NCBI GenBank assembly: GCA_016282915.1
Contig: JAEELW010000118.1
Location: 1 to 34,876, forward strand
Direction: 5' to 3'
Source of the DNA: Lachnospiraceae bacterium
GTDB lineage: Bacteria; Bacillota; Clostridia; Lachnospirales; Lachnospiraceae
DNA: 34,876 bases
A model generated the notes under the pieces. It was not told the origin of the DNA. It saw nothing but the letters and a program-made list of their open reading frames with translations, and searched no databases. Each line of letters begins with the position of its first letter. The stretch's first letter is position 1. Below, piece after piece: positions 1 through 18,186 of this stretch. The translations under genes and the position numbers were made by a program.

Positions 1-169
1 GAGTAACTTTGCATGCATTTGCTCCTTTCTGTTCTCAACTGATGATGAATAGGTTACATCCTGCAGTATACAGAACGGCGCACCGTTTGTTCAGAATAAA
101 TGTACAGCTACATCGGAATAGGCGCACCGTTTATTTCGGAATGTGCGCACCGATTGGCCGGAATTTGCA
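1..169 (-). mobile_element. End of an IS21-like insertion sequence (partial)
   Basis: Three related segments (77-97, 121-142 and 144-164) share the core GCGCACCG followed by a GAAT-type end, a pattern like the multiple terminal repeats of IS21-family elements. The outer edge appears to be ...TTTGCA at 169, because the reading frame of the neighbouring gene is sensible up to that point and becomes IS sequence after it. At the left edge of the window a minus-strand AAAGGAG precedes an ATG (near 13-15), where the first transposase gene would start; only a few codons are visible. Family assignment is inference from terminal architecture; no transposase sequence can be read. Confidence 0.45.
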
Positions 170-502
170 CCCGGCATGTAAAGAACTGTATAACTTCTCT
201 ATTTCATTGTCAGAATACGCCACAACGACCTTTTCGATTAATTTCAGTCTGCTCTCAGCTTCTTTCAAAACAGCGTCATTGTAATTCTTCTGCGCCAACT
301 GACATGCCAATTGAATATTATCCTTTGTAATGTATACCCCCTGCTTGTCATTAACACAATGATAGTATCTGAACCTTTTCCCATCCTTTGATATGCGTAA
401 CCATCCAGCCGGAGGAGTTGTATCCTGCATCTTTCTGGTCTTTAATATGATCCTTTTCAAATACTCTTGCTCCTGCAATAACATTTCTATAAATCCATAC
501 AT
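131..502 (-). pseudogene. Truncated hypothetical protein (N-terminal part), cut by the IS21-like end
   Basis: A strong ribosome site (GGGAGGGG) precedes the ATG at 502. The 123-residue product looks like the N-terminal third of a hypothetical protein family common in Lachnospiraceae: an N-terminal helix, a SKDGKRFRYYH segment, a GVYITKDN segment, and an AQKNYNDAVLKEAE helix. From memory, full-length members continue into a restriction-endonuclease-like domain; that part is absent here. The last dozen residues (CKFRPIGAHIPK) are encoded by the insertion-sequence end, so the natural frame was interrupted after about residue 111. No function can be assigned; it is probably inactive. Confidence 0.6.
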
Positions 503-917: not shown

Positions 918-2345
918 TTATGCGGCCGCTGGTCTTCGGATATCGCTCATCATCTTCTGTGGATCATATGCGACACCCTTAGTCAGTACTGCGTAGAACA
1001 CTCGTATCAGCTTACAGCTGATGGCTATCACGGACTGCTTCTTCTTCAATGGATTGCTCTCTCTTGTCGTGTAATATCTGTGCAGCTCTCGGAATTCCGG
1101 GTTCGTAGCTATCAGCGGGATGGCAGCATTAAACAGTATGGCTCGCAGCTTACTTCGACCTCTTTTACTTATGGTCGTCTGTCCCTTATGCTTCCCTGAG
1201 CTATTCTCCCTCAGCGATAATCCGGCAAGCTTCTGGATCTGTCTGGGTGATTCGAAACGCCTCACATCACCCACCTCTGCCAGAAACCCTGCAACCGTGA
1301 TCAGTCCGATACCTTGAATGGCAAGCAGTTGCTCGCTTTCGGGTATCAACCTACACAAACGTTCTATTTCTTTCATGATCGAGTCCAGCTGTGCCTTCTT
1401 GTAGTCATAATCCTGAAGCAACAGGTTCATTTCATATCTTGCTGCGGCAGTCCCCTTTTTTAGACCGATGCTCTGCTTTGCTATCTCATACAGGGTCGTT
1501 GCCCGTTTTATCCCGACAGCTCTCAGCTTCGCATCCCGCCAGATCTGATTTACGCCTTCAGCGCCAAGCGTTATGACTTCTTCCGGCAGACATGCCTTTC
1601 GTAATACCAGCATGCTACTCTGTGACTCGTAATCACCAAACACATCCGTGTATTCGGGAAAGTAAATGGCAAACCATCTGGCAAACCGGTTCTTGACCTG
1701 GGTAAGCTCCCTGATGAGCCGTTTACGATTGTTTACCAGTACTCTTAAGTCTGCGTATACGCCATCCGGTGTATACGGTGCGGAATACCTTCCTTCGATG
1801 ACCAGTTTTGCTATCACCTTCGGATCTTTGTTATCATTCTTACTCTGGCTGTTGTCATCCAGTTCCTTGGTCTGCTTTACCGCATAGGGGTTCACCATGA
1901 CTAGCAGGATGCCTTCATCCTCAAGGTAAGCACCAAGATCGAACCAGTAATGACCGGTCGGCTCGATCCCCACGATCACTTCTGCCTTCCCATGCTTGTC
2001 TTTTAAGTGCTGCATCCAGTCTTTCAGGCCTACAAAGCCTCCTCGGCTGTTGCTGAATTTAAAGACCTTTCCGAGTTCAATGCCCCTCCAGTCAAAGGCT
2101 CTGGCATACTGTGTCGTGCTCCCGATATCAATCCCTACCACCAAAGTAGATTCTTTTACTTGATTGATCTTCTGATTTTGTTTACAATTCATTTGTGAGG
2201 GTCTCCTTTGTTTAATGATTTAGTCAACCGCCAAGTTAACAATCATTATTCTATGGGAGTCTCTCACTTTTTACAAACCCATCATTTGTTCCTTAACAGG
2301 AATGCTCCCTAATATGTTATATTGACTCCTTTATGGTCTCCTGAT
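520..2345 (-). mobile_element. IS110-family insertion element (ends approximate)
   Basis: The element comprises the transposase, a short upstream flank of about 150 bases and a long downstream flank of about 400 bases. IS110 elements usually lack terminal inverted repeats and leave little or no target duplication, so the ends cannot be fixed by inspection. The right limit is set by the start of the tandem array (first arm at 2352) and the left by the ribosome site of the truncated gene at about 510. The element is a probable recent arrival since its transposase is uninterrupted. Confidence 0.5.
918..2192 (-). CDS. IS110-family transposase (DEDD/serine recombinase type)
   Basis: This 424-residue protein has the two-part layout of IS110 transposases. 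The N-terminal RuvC-like domain opens with VGIDIGSTTQYARAFD and continues through GIEPTGHYWFDLG and a KNDNKDPKVIAKL block, giving the acidic residues. The C-terminal Transposase_20 domain contains IQGIGLITVAGFLAEVGD and AGLSLRENSSGKHKGQ, where the serine of the SSG segment is the expected nucleophile. Length is normal and the frame is intact, so it may be active. An AAAGGAG-type site lies about ten bases upstream of the ATG. The gene sits between a truncated hypothetical gene and the 54-bp repeat array. Confidence 0.93.
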   Translation of the reverse strand: MNCKQNQKINQVKESTLVVGIDIGSTTQYARAFDWRGIELGKVFKFSNSRGGFVGLKDWMQHLKDKHGKAEVIVGIEPTGHYWFDLGAYLEDEGILLVMVNPYAVKQTKELDDNSQSKNDNKDPKVIAKLVIEGRYSAPYTPDGVYADLRVLVNNRKRLIRELTQVKNRFARWFAIYFPEYTDVFGDYESQSSMLVLRKACLPEEVITLGAEGVNQIWRDAKLRAVGIKRATTLYEIAKQSIGLKKGTAAARYEMNLLLQDYDYKKAQLDSIMKEIERLCRLIPESEQLLAIQGIGLITVAGFLAEVGDVRRFESPRQIQKLAGLSLRENSSGKHKGQTTISKRGRSKLRAILFNAAIPLIATNPEFRELHRYYTTRESNPLKKKQSVIAISCKLIRVFYAVLTKGVAYDPQKMMSDIRRPAAA

Positions 2346-2351
2346 GATGCG

Positions 2352-3568
2352 GTCACATGGCCTCCGGCGATCCTGTGACCTATTTCGCTGGTTTTGCCTT
2401 TTTACAGTCACATGGCCTCCGGCGACTCTGTGACCTATTTCGCTGGTTTTGGCATTTACAGTCACATGGCCTCCGGCGACTCTGTGACCTATTTTGCTGG
2501 TTTTGCCTTTTGCAGTCACATGCCCTCCGGCGATCCTGTGACCTATTTCGCTGGTTTTGCCTTTTGCAGTCACATGGCCTCAGACGACCCTGTGACCTAT
2601 TTCGCTGGTTTTGCCTTTTACAGTCACATGACCCTCGGCGATCCTGTGACCTATTTCGCTGGTTTTGGCATTTACGGTCACATGGCCTCAGGCGATCCTG
2701 TGACCTATTTCACTGGTTTTGCCTTTTGCAGTCACATGCCCTCCGGCATTCCTGTGACCTATTTCGCTGGTTTTGCCTTTTACAGTCACATGCCCTCAGG
2801 CGACTCTGTGACCTATTTCGCTGGTTTTGACATTTACAGTCACATGGCCCTCGGCGACTCTGTGACCTATTTCGCTGGTTTTGGCATTTACAGTCACATG
2901 GCCTCAGGCGACTCTGTGACCTATTTCGCTGGTTTTGCCTTTTACAGTCACATGGCCTCCGGCGATCCTGTGACCTAATTTGCTGGTTTTGCCTTTTGCA
3001 GTCACATGGCCTCCGGCGACTCTGTGACCTAATTTGCTGGTTTTGGCATTTACGGTCACATGGCCTCAGGCGACTCTGTGACCTATTTCGCTGGTTTTGC
3101 CTTTTACAGTCACATGGCCTCCGGCGATCCTGTGACCTATTTCGCTGGTTTTGGCATTTACGGTCACATGGCCTCCGGTATTCCTGTGACCTATTTCGCT
3201 GGTTTTGCCTTTTACAGTCACATGGCCCCCGGCGATCCTGTGACCTATTTTGTTGGTTTTGGCATTTACGGTCACATGACCTCCGGCGACTCTGTGACCT
3301 ATTTCGCTGGGTTTGCCTTTTACAGTCACATAGCTTCCGACGATCCTGTGACCTATTTCGCTGGTTTTGGCATTTACAGTCACATAGCTTCCGACGACTC
3401 TGTGACCTATTTCGCTGGGTTTGGCATTTACGGTCACATGGCCTCAGGCGACTCTGTGACCTATTTCGCTGGTTTTGACATTTACGGTCACATGGCCTCC
3501 GGCAACTCTGTGACCTATTTCGCTGGTTTTGCCTTTTACAGTCACATGGCCTCAGGCGACTCTGTGAC
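2352..3568. repeat. 54-bp tandem repeat array, 23 hairpin copies
   Basis: Each unit starts with GTCACA, then a 16-base loop (consensus TGGCCTCCGGCGAYYC), then TGTGAC, then a 26-base spacer (consensus CTATTTCGCTGGTTTTGSCWTTTACR). Starts are at 2352, 2407, 2461 and then every 54 bases to 3541; only the first interval is 55. Both 6-base arms are identical in all 23 copies, while loop and spacer carry many substitutions. The period is a multiple of three, so long frames read through on both strands, but the forward frame has TAA stops in the units at 2947 and 3001. No family of known repeats is recognised. Confidence 0.95.
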
Positions 3569-3726: not shown

Positions 3727-3750
3727 CCCGGAAGCCAGAGGGCTTCCGGG
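3727..3750 (-). terminator. Probable terminator after rplM-rpsI
   Basis: A perfect 10-bp stem (CCCGGAAGCC with GGCTTCCGGG, loop AGAG) lies 36 bases past the rpsI stop. In the minus direction it is followed by TTGTATT, a weak U-tract, so termination may be partial. Confidence 0.65.
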
Positions 3751-3786: not shown

Positions 3787-4188
3787 TTATCTCTTGCTGA
3801 ACTGAGGTGCACGTCTTGCGGCTTTGAGACCGTATTTCTTACGCTCTTTCATACGAGGATCGCGGGTAAGGTAGCCGGCCTTTTTCAGAACCGGGCGATA
3901 CTCTTCGTCCGCATGTACCAGCGCACGGGCGATACCGTGACGAACCGCACCTGCCTGACCGGTGAATCCGCCGCCCTTAACGGTAACATAAGCGTCGAAC
4001 TTGCCCTCCGCTTCCAGAGCGGTCAGAGGCTGCTTAACGATCACCTTGAGGGTCTCCATGCCGAAATACTCATCCAGATCGCGGCTGTTGATGGTGATCT
4101 TTCCTTTACCGGGAGTCAGAAAGACTCTTGCTACAGATTTCTTACGTCTGCCGGTCCCGTAAAACTTTTCCGTTGCTTTCTTTGCCAT
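3787..4188 (-). CDS. rpsI: 30S ribosomal protein S9
   Basis: The 133-residue product has the standard S9 signature: [16 protein letters not shown] at the N-terminus, the [19 protein letters not shown] core, and the basic tail [13 protein letters not shown] whose C-terminal residues contact P-site tRNA in the small subunit. Length is normal. The start is set by GGGAGG about nine bases upstream of MAKKATEKF. It follows rplM by 16 bases, the usual L13-S9 operon, and ends before a hairpin at 3727-3750. Confidence 0.98.
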
Positions 4189-4204: not shown

Positions 4205-4633
4205 TTAAAACGACAGTGCTTCCGGCTTCTGTGCCGCATGCTTGTGCTCCGGCCCTGCATATACAAAGAGCTTCTTGTACATCTCTCTGCCCAGAGGTCC
4301 CTTGGGAAGCATACCCTTCACTGCCAGCTCGATCACCTCTTCCGGCTTCTTTGCCAGCTTCTCACGAAGGCTAGCTTCCTTCATGCCGCCGACATAATCG
4401 GAATGGCTGTAATAAATCTTCTGATCCATTTTCTTACCGGTCACCTTGATCTTTTCCGCATTCACGACGATCACATAATCGCCAAGATCCATGTTCGGTG
4501 TAAATACCGGCTTATTCTTACCACGCAGCACCTTGGCGATCTCACTGGCCAGGCGCCCTAAGGTATATCCGCTCGCGTCCACCACGTACCACTTACGCTC
4601 GATCGACTGCGGCGATGCCATATAAGTCTTCAT
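4205..4633 (-). CDS. rplM: 50S ribosomal protein L13
   Basis: This 142-residue protein matches L13 throughout: [19 protein letters not shown] at the start, [31 protein letters not shown], and the [21 protein letters not shown] block. It is an early-assembling large-subunit protein. AGGAGG lies at good spacing before the ATG at 4633. Expression comes from a consensus promoter at 4721-4749 with an 80-base leader, and rpsI is cotranscribed downstream. Confidence 0.98.
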
Positions 4634-9137: not shown

Positions 9138-9390
9138 CAGCGCATCCGCCGCCTCCGTCATCCTGCCGGGCCGGGTCCGGCCTTCCCCCTTCTCGCCCGG
9201 TGCGCCTTATCATATCCCGCTCACGTTTTACCATACTCTTCATCTCTTACAGCGCATCCGCCGCCTCCGTCATCCTCTCCGGGCCGGGTCCGGCCTTCCC
9301 ACTTCTCGCCCGGTGCGCCTTATCATATCCCGCTCACGTTTTGCCATACTCTTCATCCCTTACAGCGCATCCGCCGCCTCCGTCATCCTG
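9138..9390 (-). repeat. Tandem duplication of the DUF4956 gene end (two 112-113 bp units plus the original)
   Basis: A segment beginning CAGCGCATCCGCC occurs at 9138, 9250 and 9363. The 9363 copy is the last 28 bases of the DUF4956 gene, including its stop; the two others lie downstream with nearly identical intervening sequence (112 and 113 bp periods, a few substitutions). Each unit carries a GGCCGG/CCGGCC hairpin. The rest of 9043-9359 holds no gene. The duplication lengthens the gap before the lipoprotein gene. Confidence 0.9.
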
Positions 9391-10040
9391 CCCAGGCTGA
9401 TCTCGAGATTCCCGTTCATGGTCCGCAGTTCATCCAGAAATTCCTTCGAAGATACATGCTCCTTCAGGATCACATTCAGTGTGAGCTTGTACAGACTGCC
9501 CATATTCGTAAGCCTCACTTCCTCATAGCTGTATTCCTTCAGGTACTTCCGGAAGCTCTCCTCGAAGAGTCCCTCATAATCCAGGTTTTCCGGGACCAGG
9601 ATCTTCAGCATCCTGACGCCCCTGTTTTCCGAGCCGAAATGTGTCACGTTCAGCAGCAGATTGATCGCGGATATGATCAGCGCAAAGAGCAGCGCGATCC
9701 AGATATAGCCCATGCCTGCGGCCAGACCGACGGCCATTGCCAGAAAGATCCCGGTGATCTCCTGCCCGCGTCCGGGTGCCGAGCGGAAGCGTACCAGGCT
9801 GAAGGCGCCGGCCACGGCCACTCCCGCGCCGATGTTGCCGTTCACCAGGATGATCACCAGCTCCACGACCGCCGGAAGCAGCACCAGCGTGGTGACAAAG
9901 CTTCTTGAATAGCGGTTTTTGATCATGTACGCTCCCGCGATGATCACTCCGCAGAGCAGCGCGACGAGCGTTGTGATCATGAATTCGCTTCCGCTGAAAG
10001 TTCCGTTTGAGATTATTGAAGTAAAAATATCGTTAAACAT
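9360..10040 (-). CDS. DUF4956 family membrane protein
   Basis: The 226-residue protein has an N-terminal membrane region with about four helices (residues 20-135), including the family-typical VAGAFSLVRFRSAPGRGQEI loop, followed by a cytosolic domain of about 85 residues. The biochemical function of DUF4956 is not established. Its start overlaps the end of the VTC gene by eight bases, so the two are translationally coupled, and the pairing DUF4956 + VTC domain recurs in many bacteria (from memory). The stop region has been copied twice downstream. Confidence 0.87.
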   Translation of the reverse strand: MFNDIFTSIISNGTFSGSEFMITTLVALLCGVIIAGAYMIKNRYSRSFVTTLVLLPAVVELVIILVNGNIGAGVAVAGAFSLVRFRSAPGRGQEITGIFLAMAVGLAAGMGYIWIALLFALIISAINLLLNVTHFGSENRGVRMLKILVPENLDYEGLFEESFRKYLKEYSYEEVRLTNMGSLYKLTLNVILKEHVSSKEFLDELRTMNGNLEISLGRMTEAADAL

Positions 10041-12975: not shown

Positions 12976-13050
12976 GTTGAAGACAGGGGGACGGTCCTTC
13001 TGTCCTCAACGTCCCTCTGAAGACAGAAGGACCGTCCCCCTGTCTTCAAC
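12976..13050. repeat. REP/MITE-like inverted repeat (29-bp perfect arms), copy 1
   Basis: Arms 12976-13004 and 13022-13050 are perfect reverse complements around a 17-base loop. Each arm contains GGGGACGGTCC next to GAAGACA and CTGTC. The same sequence family occurs at 15353-15463. There is no U-tract, so it is not a standard terminator, though it lies between the DUF362 gene end and the response regulator. Confidence 0.92.
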
Positions 13051-13063
13051 GTCCCTCCGCTCC

Positions 13064-15304: not shown

Positions 15305-15352
15305 ATCCGCTTCTCCCAACGAAAGCACAGCAAAACACGTGGACGCTTCTCT

Positions 15353-15463
15353 TGAAGACACGGGGACGGTCCTCCTGTCCTCACTTTTGAAGACAGGAGG
15401 ACCGTCCCCGTGTCTTCACTGTCCTCAAGAATGAAGACAGAAGGACCGTCCCCGTGTCTTCAC
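15353..15463. repeat. REP/MITE-like inverted repeat, copy 2 with an extra third arm
   Basis: Arms 15353-15379 and 15392-15418 form a perfect 27-bp inverted repeat with a 12-base loop. A third arm (about 15432-15463) repeats the right arm but carries the AGAAGG variant found in copy 1. The shared core is GGGGACGGTCC with GAAGACA ends. The element lies between the tRNA terminator and the acyltransferase gene. Confidence 0.92.
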
Positions 15464-15771: not shown

Positions 15772-18186
15772 TCAGCGAAGAGTATAATTTCCGGCAGCAT
15801 CGCGTACCATACGGCCCAGCCATTTCTTTGATTTTTCATCCCCATGACTGGCTGCCTTGGTGAAGTGCGCTGCCGCGCTGTTCAGATCCGGTCCCTTATC
15901 AAAGGACTGCAGGTCATAATAACCAAGGATGAACTCTGCCTTCTTCTCGCCCTCGGCCAGCGCCTTTTCGGCATAGGATCTGGCTTCCTTGAAGGCTTCC
16001 TCGTCCGGGTGCATCCCGTATTCCTTTTCGGGATCCACCAGACACCATGCGATACGGTACATCGCGAAACGGTCGTTTGCGACACGCTCCAGAAGCTTCT
16101 TGTACCAGTTGACCGCTTCCTTTCCGTTCTTTGCCGTACCGCTTCCGAAGTCGTAGGCTACCGCCAGGTTGCGGATCGCCTTTTCCTGACCGGCCTGTCC
16201 CGCCTTCAGGTTCCACTTCAAAGCTTCCTTCGGATCCTTCTTTACGCCGTCGCCATAGAGGTAGCACTGTCCTACCATCGCCATAGCCGCCGGGCTGCCG
16301 AGCTCGGCACATTCTTTGTAATAACGGAATGCTTCGGGCATGCTCTTTTCCACCGTGAGGCCTTCTTCGTAGATACGGCCAAGGCAGTAGAGTGCATGTG
16401 ACTTCTCGTACTCGTCCTCCTGGATCTCTTCATCCTCCAGGGCTTCGGTCAGCATCTTCTTCAATGCTTCCGGCTCTTCCGGCAGTTCCTTACGGTTACG
16501 CAGGATCAGGTCGGTATAGTAGATCCTGCCGCGGCTGCGGCCGCTTGCCGCCGACACACGCAGAAGCGGTGCCGAAAGCTTGTAGGAATGCTCCTGATAA
16601 TAGGTAACCCCGAGGATCTCGCAGATGATCCAGTACTGCTCTGCGGTGTCGCACTGCTCGGGATGGATCTCGGCCTTACGGAAATACTCATGATACTTGT
16701 CCAGCGCGGTCTCCAGGATCGTTCTGGCTTCCTCACTGTCCTCTTCGCACTTATCGAGCGCTTTCTTTCCGAGCTCGGCGCTCTCTTTCTTCAGCGTCTG
16801 TATTTCCTTCGCCTTCTCCTCGGCTGCCTTGCGGGCCGCTTCCTCGGCCTCACGGCGTTTTCTCTCTTCTTCTTCCTTACGCCGGGCCTCTTCCTCCGCA
16901 CGCTTCCGTTCTTCTTCCTTACGGCGTGCTTCTTCCTCGGCGCGCTTTCTTTCTTCTTCCTTACGGCGTGCTTCTTCGGCGGCCTTTCTGGCTGCCTCTT
17001 CCTCGGCACGTTTCTTTTCTTCCGCTGCCTTGCGGGCCGCTTCTTCCTCGGCACGCTTCTTTTCTTCCGCTGCCTTGCGGGCCGCTTCTTCCTCCGCGCG
17101 CTTCTTCTCTTCCTCGGCCTTCTTTGCAGCCTCTTCTGCCGCGCGTCTGCGTTCTTCCTCCGCCTTCTTTGCAGCTTCCTCGGCAGCTTTCTTTGCTTCC
17201 TCCGCCTTCTTTGCTGCTTCTTCGGCGGCACGCTTCCGTTCTTCTTCCGCCTTCTTCGCAGCTTCCTCGGCGGCTTTCTTTGCTTCCTCGGCTCTCTTTG
17301 CGGCTTCTTCGGCGGCGCGTTTGCGTTCTTCTTCCGCCTTCTTCGCAGCCTCTTCCGCTGCACGTTTCCGCTCTTCTTCCGCCTTCTTCGCAGCTTCTTC
17401 GGCAGCCCTCTTTTCTTCCTCCGCCTTCTTTGCTGCTTCTTCCGCTGCCTTCTTTGCCTCTTCTTCTGCGCGCTTCTTTTCTTCTTCCGCTCTGCGCGCG
17501 GCAGCTTCGGCCGCCTGCTTCCGGTCTTCCTCGGCTTTACGTGCGGCAGCTTCGGCTTCCTCACGGGTAAGGCCTACCGGCACCGGTATGGGTGCGGGCT
17601 GGACCGGCGCCGCCGGAACGGGCGCAGGCTGAACCACCTGCCCTGCCTGGGGCATCGTCCCCGGCATAGCCTGCGGCATGGTCCCCGGCATAGCCTGAGG
17701 CATCGTCCCCGGCATAGCCGCCGGAGCGCCGTTCATCACAGGCTGGCCCTGCGTCGGTGCGGCAAGCATAGGGTTATTCGGCATCGACTGCACGCTCACG
17801 GGCGCCTGATTCTGCGTATTCATTTTCTGTTCCGAAACAAAAGTAGGTGCAGTAGGCACTCCCGGATCCGATTTTACCGGACCGCCCAGACCGGCCGAGA
17901 AATCTTCGGCACTTTTCAGGAAATCAAGTTCGGGTGCCTTCGGTGCAGGCTCTTCCTTCTTTTCATCCAGAAAAGAAAGCGAGATCGTCCCGTCACAGGG
18001 CTTTCCGCAGGACCAGCAGAACTTGGCTTTGAAATCCAGTGCGGAACCGCAATACATGCAGCTTCTGCCCTTCGATGTAGCGCCGAAAAAGTTGGATTTC
18101 ATCTCCTTGTACTCGGATGATCCGCACTTCCCGCAGAAGCGGTCATTCTTTCCCAGCTTGTTTCCGCATTGTGCACACACTCTCAT
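15772..18186 (-). CDS. Zinc-ribbon / long charged helix / Sel1-repeat protein
   Basis: The 804-residue protein is built in four parts. Residues 1-65 hold two zinc ribbons (CAQC/CGKC and CMYC/CWSC). Residues about 70-205 are a Pro/Met/Gln-rich linker with repeated PGTMPQAM units. Residues about 210-470 are an uninterrupted run of KKAEEE-, RKRAAEEAA- and RRKEEE-type repeats, predicting a very long coiled coil or single alpha-helix. The C-terminal 330 residues contain Sel1-like TPR repeats (ALYCLGRIYEEG, AMAMVGQCYLYGDGVKKD, AIRNLAVAYDFGSGT). It is probably a cytoplasmic scaffold; no enzymatic motif is seen. It has its own promoter at 18253-18281. No strong ribosome site precedes the ATG, but no alternative start exists nearby. 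Confidence 0.88.
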   Translation of the reverse strand: MRVCAQCGNKLGKNDRFCGKCGSSEYKEMKSNFFGATSKGRSCMYCGSALDFKAKFCWSCGKPCDGTISLSFLDEKKEEPAPKAPELDFLKSAEDFSAGLGGPVKSDPGVPTAPTFVSEQKMNTQNQAPVSVQSMPNNPMLAAPTQGQPVMNGAPAAMPGTMPQAMPGTMPQAMPGTMPQAGQVVQPAPVPAAPVQPAPIPVPVGLTREEAEAAARKAEEDRKQAAEAAARRAEEEKKRAEEEAKKAAEEAAKKAEEEKRAAEEAAKKAEEERKRAAEEAAKKAEEERKRAAEEAAKRAEEAKKAAEEAAKKAEEERKRAAEEAAKKAEEAKKAAEEAAKKAEEERRRAAEEAAKKAEEEKKRAEEEAARKAAEEKKRAEEEAARKAAEEKKRAEEEAARKAAEEARRKEEERKRAEEEARRKEEERKRAEEEARRKEEEERKRREAEEAARKAAEEKAKEIQTLKKESAELGKKALDKCEEDSEEARTILETALDKYHEYFRKAEIHPEQCDTAEQYWIICEILGVTYYQEHSYKLSAPLLRVSAASGRSRGRIYYTDLILRNRKELPEEPEALKKMLTEALEDEEIQEDEYEKSHALYCLGRIYEEGLTVEKSMPEAFRYYKECAELGSPAAMAMVGQCYLYGDGVKKDPKEALKWNLKAGQAGQEKAIRNLAVAYDFGSGTAKNGKEAVNWYKKLLERVANDRFAMYRIAWCLVDPEKEYGMHPDEEAFKEARSYAEKALAEGEKKAEFILGYYDLQSFDKGPDLNSAAAHFTKAASHGDEKSKKWLGRMVRDAAGNYTLR

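Follow-up and report, generated by a model that had tools for sequence, protein, structure and literature searches.

The window (the whole stretch of 34,876 nt from a Lachnospiraceae bacterium that we analysed) carries, at positions 2352..3568, an array of 23 copies of the dyad GTCACA-N16-TGTGAC with a period of 54 bp. Beyond the last dyad (3541..3568) lie rpsI, which encodes ribosomal protein S9 (3787..4188, minus strand), and an adjoining minus-strand gene (4205..4633), which we take to be rplM-like and whose ORF, used as a query, has matches beside rpsI in relatives. A terminator-like hairpin, CCCGGAAGCC-AGAG-GGCTTCCGGG, is recognizable by eye 3' of rpsI (3727..3750, minus strand). The first dyad (2352..2379) faces a transposase gene of the IS110 family (918..2192, minus strand; DEDD_Tnp_IS110, 1.9e-30; Transposase_20, 4.2e-25), whose element, with flanks at 2193-2352 and 503-917, abuts the array; by eye, array-like sequence ends at the outer edge of this dyad, after the outermost TGTGAC arm. 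Elsewhere, the window holds a 113-bp tandem repeat in 2.3 copies (9138-9392), tandem repeats of 40 and 35 bp in two copies each (12978-13057 and 15352-15420) around GGACCGTCCCCCTGTCCTC that look REP-like by eye, and tandem repeats (16866-17535) that encode a long Ala/Glu/Lys-rich region of an 804-aa ORF (15772-18186, minus strand).

On the far side of the IS110-family transposase gene lies the N-terminal fragment of a PD-(D/E)XK-like nuclease gene (131..502, minus strand; 123 aa), 60 per cent identical to residues 2-110 of the protein at locus L074 of a congener; the array, read in the nuclease-gene sense, is likewise on the minus strand. The C-terminal part is found on another contig of the same genome (G000:C145:124-600; 82 per cent, residues 104-262 of L074). 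By eye, CCGGAATTTGCA lies near the edge of the 1..172 segment and likewise near the edge of the C145 fragment. Because both fragments end at one short sequence, the gene is probably split by a second insertion sequence, one end of which would be positions 1..172 (boundary by eye). Judged by its sequence, the fragment at 131-502, which the initial annotation missed, belongs with the window array, and the pair in this genome has probably been broken twice, by the IS110-family element between array and gene and by a further element within the gene. Perfect arms persist beside the broken gene, so either the break is recent or the arms are kept in some other way. We rejected the IS110-family element as the owner of the array, as the array-bearing loci L067 and L074 have no IS110 match. 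A portion of the non-coding region upstream in this element (approximately 2195-2308) also has a match near a nuclease-array locus of another genome (L051 of G022).

Pattern matching recovers the 23 arm pairs without a single arm change, at 21 intervals of 54 bp and one, the first, of 55 bp (n = 22), exactly as the initial annotation had described, and TRF reports a period of 54, 22.5 copies, and 88 per cent matches. The accompanying claim that only the arms are invariant was wrong: among units 2-22, 33 of the 54 columns are invariant, and these comprise not only all 12 arm columns but also 4 of 16 loop and 17 of 26 spacer columns, that is, 21 outside the arms. Random placement would put all 12 arm columns among the invariant ones with P = 0.001 (a post hoc calculation). 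Since so much sequence outside the arms is invariant as well, the window array alone cannot separate selection from homogenization.

The window repeat unit is private to its genome among those searched. A longer pattern of the unit matches 22 times in its own genome, every time inside the window array, and matches to the unit were found in none of 34 other genomes of the genus and, with up to 2 mismatches allowed, in none of 396 other genomes sampled from the family. Blastn searches with the array against plasmid and phage collections gave no match, and Rfam at gathering thresholds found four tRNAs in the window and nothing on the array. Folding z-scores of four single units range from -1.1 to -2.5. 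In a background scan for dyads in 800-bp tiles from 20 stretches of the same genome plus the window, 3 of 358 tiles were flagged, and two of the three are the window array. The third (L276 7346-7657, on G000:C21) is an alternating-dyad array with a period of approximately 61 bp and the arms AAGAGC/GCTCTT. We rejected a protein-coding repeat, as none of the three ORFs over the window array matches a Pfam family and, in relatives, 339 of the 495 arm intervals are not divisible by 3. The alternating inverted arms and similar spacers also differ from the identical repeats and unique spacers of a CRISPR array. A promoter scan around the arrays detected neither a signal nor an enrichment.

In two congeners (L067 and L074), arrays of 53 and 54 bp that differ in sequence from the window array lie downstream of rpsI, and each is directly followed by a gene for a PD-(D/E)XK-like nuclease, the protein having 261 or 263 residues. 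Altogether, 12 related array-nuclease loci sit downstream of rpsI. In two further congeners (L063 and L069), a ParB-like gene, read from the sequence, occupies this place instead. The region 3' of rpsI may be a hotspot for insertions.

The association extends across the genus and family. Of 29 nuclease places in the genus, 27 were oriented and scanned, and 20 of these have a TRF array (period 50-130) ending no more than 550 bp upstream of the nuclease match; of the other seven, one is the window fragment and three are preceded by less than 150 bp of sequence. Across 57 loci flanked on each side by 800 bp or more, TRF arrays (period 35-130) lie upstream at 40 and downstream at 6. When flanks are divided into 700-bp bins (period 45-130), the proximal upstream bin contains an array at 40 of 63 loci, compared with 0/58, 0/59, and 3/60 further upstream and 3/78, 4/75, 0/70, and 2/70 downstream. 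Several TRF-negative upstream regions have visibly degenerate arrays by eye. We also scanned for dyads, defined as at least 5 alternations between an exact 6-mer and its reverse complement. They were flagged in 52 of 100 regions upstream vs. 4 of 76 downstream and in 0 of 300 single-base shuffles, which preserve base composition only. The regions scanned include one array twice (L092 = L127), and L132 and L135 are near relatives; several of the 48 regions below the threshold contain degenerate dyads by eye.

A second set, drawn from other genera of the family, behaves in the same way: 23 of 52 upstream regions are flagged vs. 0 of 260 shuffles of the same kind. This set took 58 of 93 places (leaving out the genus of the window, fragments, and places with little upstream sequence), of which L210, equal to L185, and five places with less than 300 bp upstream were dropped. 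When 75 arrays were scored against shuffles that likewise preserve base composition only, 36 reached P ≤ 0.05, so some arms are chance dyads. The distance from the end of the array to the start of the nuclease gene match is 14-53 bp in some cases, and at L090, L108, L109, L144, and L195, arrays lie on both sides of the gene. Clustering of the neighbors of 80 loci found no other gene common to most of them; the largest cluster spans 11. Separately, L099, L102, and L106 carry further arrays of 40-41 bp (approximately four helical turns), approximately 50-430 bp downstream of the nuclease match, with sequences unlike those of the upstream arrays. On this comparison of sequences, the window array is one example of a widespread array-nuclease pairing in gut bacteria.

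The proteins of the nuclease family that we scanned have no Pfam or NCBIfam match above the curated cut-offs; seven Pfam families each weakly match one of 72 members. In a PADLOC search, the C-terminal half of the L074 protein matches PDC-S68 (E = 6.1e-26) and HEAT_CxxC_PDDEXK (9.1e-7). Four residues, E160, D191, E206, and H207, are invariant in all 72 aligned relatives, and we read E160, D191, and E206, with H207 beside them, as the putative catalytic set. A structure predicted for the relative at L119 (pLDDT 94.8, pTM 0.79) has as its top PDB matches DrdV, followed by BamHI and a Pyrococcus repair endonuclease, all of which we take to belong to the PD-(D/E)XK superfamily; these matches are weak (best E = 0.036, none at 0.001 or better), and a search of the sequence against solved structures gave nothing better than E = 0.07. 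With conserved acidic residues in a predicted alpha-beta core, the family has the features of a PD-(D/E)XK nuclease, the fold matches being weak. In the N-terminal part of the model, a helix of 36 residues follows a small beta-sheet, and by analogy with three-stranded arm-binding domains, this part may be a DNA-binding and pairing module. A viral structure library gave two matches at E < 0.001, both uncharacterized, and PHROGs matches are to families of unknown function only (best E = 0.00018). Partial matches were also found in 2 plasmid and 3 phage records, one covering 79 per cent of the query.

A scan of genome contigs yielded at least 566 confirmed stretches encoding the nuclease. Among the 80 records listed, most are assigned to Lachnospiraceae, its genera, or Clostridiales/Eubacteriales, and one to Fibrobacter. 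Matches occur in 15 of 35 genomes of the genus and, at E ≤ 1e-10, in 52 of 150 sampled genomes of the family, some of the latter being fragments or nuclease domains inside long open frames; one genome (G106) has seven near-complete matches. Examples of the domain inside frames of 1112-1245 residues are at G112:C13:69371-69739, G068:C1:955692-956057, and G121:C6:156031-156396, approximately the size of the candidate defence protein PDC-S68.

The spacing of the dyads follows the helical repeat of DNA. Of 495 intervals between arms of the same orientation, 319 are 52-55, 105 are 62-64, 49 are 73-75, and 11 are 84-85 bp long, which correspond to approximately 5, 6, 7, and 8 turns of B-DNA. Thus, 484 of the 495 fall into these classes; of the remainder, 2 measure 43 bp and 9 take other values, and the ranges 56-59, 65-68, and 76-83 bp are empty. 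Thirteen arrays hold intervals that differ by at least 6 bp, and 11 of them consist entirely of whole-turn classes (e.g. L110 alternates 53 and 62, and L176 has 63, 63, and 73); L142 and L182 have one off-phase interval each. The second set gave 216 intervals, 210 of them inside windows, covering 22 of 56 possible values, that were derived from the first set and fixed before the second was examined. Spacing locked to whole turns in both sets supports the earlier suggestion that the dyads lie on the same face of the helix. Whole-turn spacing together with exact arms is not what amplification or conversion would produce by itself, which argues for selection.

Comparison within arrays points in the same direction. 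The initial annotation had suggested that the dyad is selected, or else that amplification with conversion was very recent, and had named arms mutating as often as spacers in relatives as an outcome against it; after alignment of the arrays, change averaged 0.070 in arms vs. 0.163 in loops and was lower in arms in 37 of 46, an outcome in favor of selection. In 22 of the 51 arrays with at least 3 regularly spaced arms, the sequence between arms (8-base samples) is less than 50 per cent identical, and in some near random, while the arms are exact and regular; as the scan requires exact 6-mers, exactness is partly built in, and the evidence is how many sites there are and how regularly they are spaced. 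The proposal of a selected dyad is thereby borne out, as relatives keep exact arms with unrelated DNA between them. The selected form seems to be DNA rather than RNA, mainly because the spacing follows turns of B-DNA. Hairpin units acting as RNA are disfavored by this helical quantization, and the strand bias of mismatches expected of them is not clear: over 46 arrays, we counted 95 G.T vs. 86 A.C mismatches, and in the 32 best-supported dyads, 63 vs. 55. Without the misregistered arrays L099 and L162, the counts are 90 vs. 70 (P = 0.13), which is compatible with a mild sense-strand bias.

The arms differ not only between genomes but also within them. All four loci of G022 have different arms (L090, L106, L116, and L118), as do five of the seven loci of G106 (L223, L232, L235, L237, and L256, the last of which is below the dyad threshold with 4 alternations). 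Since arms differ between loci of one genome, the simplest assumption is that a protein encoded at the same locus reads them. Across 49 arrays, mean arm similarity is flat at 0.33-0.40 when the nuclease proteins are less than 60 per cent identical, 0.55 at 60-75 per cent, and 0.87 above 75 per cent; the overall correlation is weak (Spearman 0.118, a value reached by 2 of 500 permutations). The loci closest to the window have GTCA/TGAC in common in their arms. A search for specificity residues between two arm groups placed 3 of 13 fixed differences in residues 34-60 and 4 of 13 in residues 61-96, with no concentration in the beta-sheet.

Given these observations, we think it rather probable that array and nuclease form a two-part system, with the array as its cis-acting DNA component and the PD-(D/E)XK-like enzyme, encoded immediately 3', as the other. 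The N-terminal domain of this enzyme, with its predicted beta-sheet and long helix, would read the arms in inverted pairs, and many copies bound on one face of the DNA would pack into a single nucleoprotein body, which would restrain the nuclease and probably its gene. More speculatively, the restrained enzyme may be a harmful DNA nuclease that is set free only in a conflict, for example when a phage attacks or the element is lost. A stronger form of this proposal, possible though doubtful, is a DNA-based antidote, in which the phased array serves as a private decoy scaffold that silences the adjacent nuclease, and array loss, replication, or occupation by an invader frees the enzyme.

Other explanations account for parts of the data. 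In a selfish or homing-type element, the nuclease would cut the dyads or unoccupied sites, and repair would both spread the array along with the gene and expand it. The patchy presence of the family (15 of the 35 genus genomes and 52 of the 150 family genomes), several paralogs per genome, arrays on both sides of some genes, and the invariant putative catalytic residues would all suit such an element. However, the twelve loci downstream of rpsI keep their place, which suggests residence, cutting its own many sites would presumably break the chromosome, and whole-turn spacing is unnecessary for cutting; we therefore regard this explanation as unlikely. It is quite improbable that the arrays are operators or partition sites read by a protein other than the nuclease. 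Iterons and partition sites are typically phased multi-site arrays, but no other gene is common to most of the 80 loci, and the different arms of paralogous loci within one genome are most simply explained by a reader that the locus itself encodes.

We consider a system resembling type III toxin-antitoxins, in which transcribed hairpin units would inhibit the nuclease as ToxI does ToxN, very improbable. Its gene order matches that of ToxIN, the repeats lying directly 5' of the nuclease gene (in the window, with the IS110-family element now in between), the arrays that end 14-53 bp before the gene match might be part of a leader, and G.T mismatches outnumber A.C once the two misregistered arrays are dropped. 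Against it stand the locking of the spacing to B-DNA turns, an excess of G.T on the sense strand that is not clear in the other two counts, loops that are unrelated within many arrays, a nuclease that appears to be PD-(D/E)XK-like, and an array that has no Rfam match. Finally, a functionless, strain-specific tandem amplification with gene conversion would fit the homogeneity of the window array (33 of 54 columns) and its absence from the other genus and family genomes searched. We give this explanation almost no credence, as arrays of this class recur in the same place, with unrelated sequence, beside one gene family, and their arms and spacing persist where the remaining sequence is unrelated.

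With these loci, the idea that a DNA array can restrain a nuclease is open to direct test. Genes of the nuclease family are often accompanied by hundreds of base pairs in which little constraint is visible apart from the inverted arms and their spacing by whole helical turns. In nature, phasing at the DNA level and concerted change of specificity over many sites are seldom recorded so cleanly, and the loci provide a large number of candidate protein-site pairs that differ from one another. Were the decoy scaffold real, a shift in the specificity of the enzyme would require a matching shift in every arm of its array, and many private specificities would have turned over fast within one bacterial family. 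Our search of the open-access literature, as far as its texts were available, found no description of such an array-nuclease pair. The single ingredients are known, to our knowledge not in combination, and the array-nuclease combination is apparently undescribed.

Several known systems have features in common with these loci. The ToxIN system has its repeat array 5' of the nuclease gene and in the same orientation, and the type III toxin-antitoxins in general (ToxIN, CptIN, and TenpIN) resemble the loci described here in having tandem repeats immediately 5' of a nuclease gene. According to the abstract of PMC8860590, the toxin of these systems is an endoribonuclease and the antitoxin consists of multiple RNA repeats. 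Those repeats act as RNA on an endoRNase, whereas the present arrays follow the helical phase of DNA and adjoin a gene for a PD-(D/E)XK-like protein, which has no Pfam or NCBIfam match above cut-off that would place it in the ToxN/AbiQ family and whose top structural matches are PD-(D/E)XK enzymes. The candidate defence proteins PDC-S68 and HEAT_CxxC_PDDEXK of PADLOC have, by sequence, a similar C-terminal PD-(D/E)XK domain; the PDC-S68 models, however, span approximately 1200 positions, of which only the last 130 or so match, and the N-terminal half of the present nuclease has no match.

REP/RAYT systems likewise combine palindromes with the adjoining gene of a DNA-processing enzyme. Unlike these, the nuclease has no match to a tyrosine transposase, the window dyad is not dispersed in its own genome, and the arrays are long and regular. 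Homing endonucleases are similar in the position of a nuclease gene beside its presumed recognition sites and in their patchy distribution, but the sites described here are many, intact, and phased, and cutting is putative. Iterons, parS/parC-type sites, and operator arrays resemble the present arrays in having several helically phased sites next to a gene whose product is presumed to bind them. In contrast to iterons and partition sites, the adjacent protein is a predicted nuclease with invariant putative catalytic residues rather than Rep or ParB, and the arms turn over between loci.
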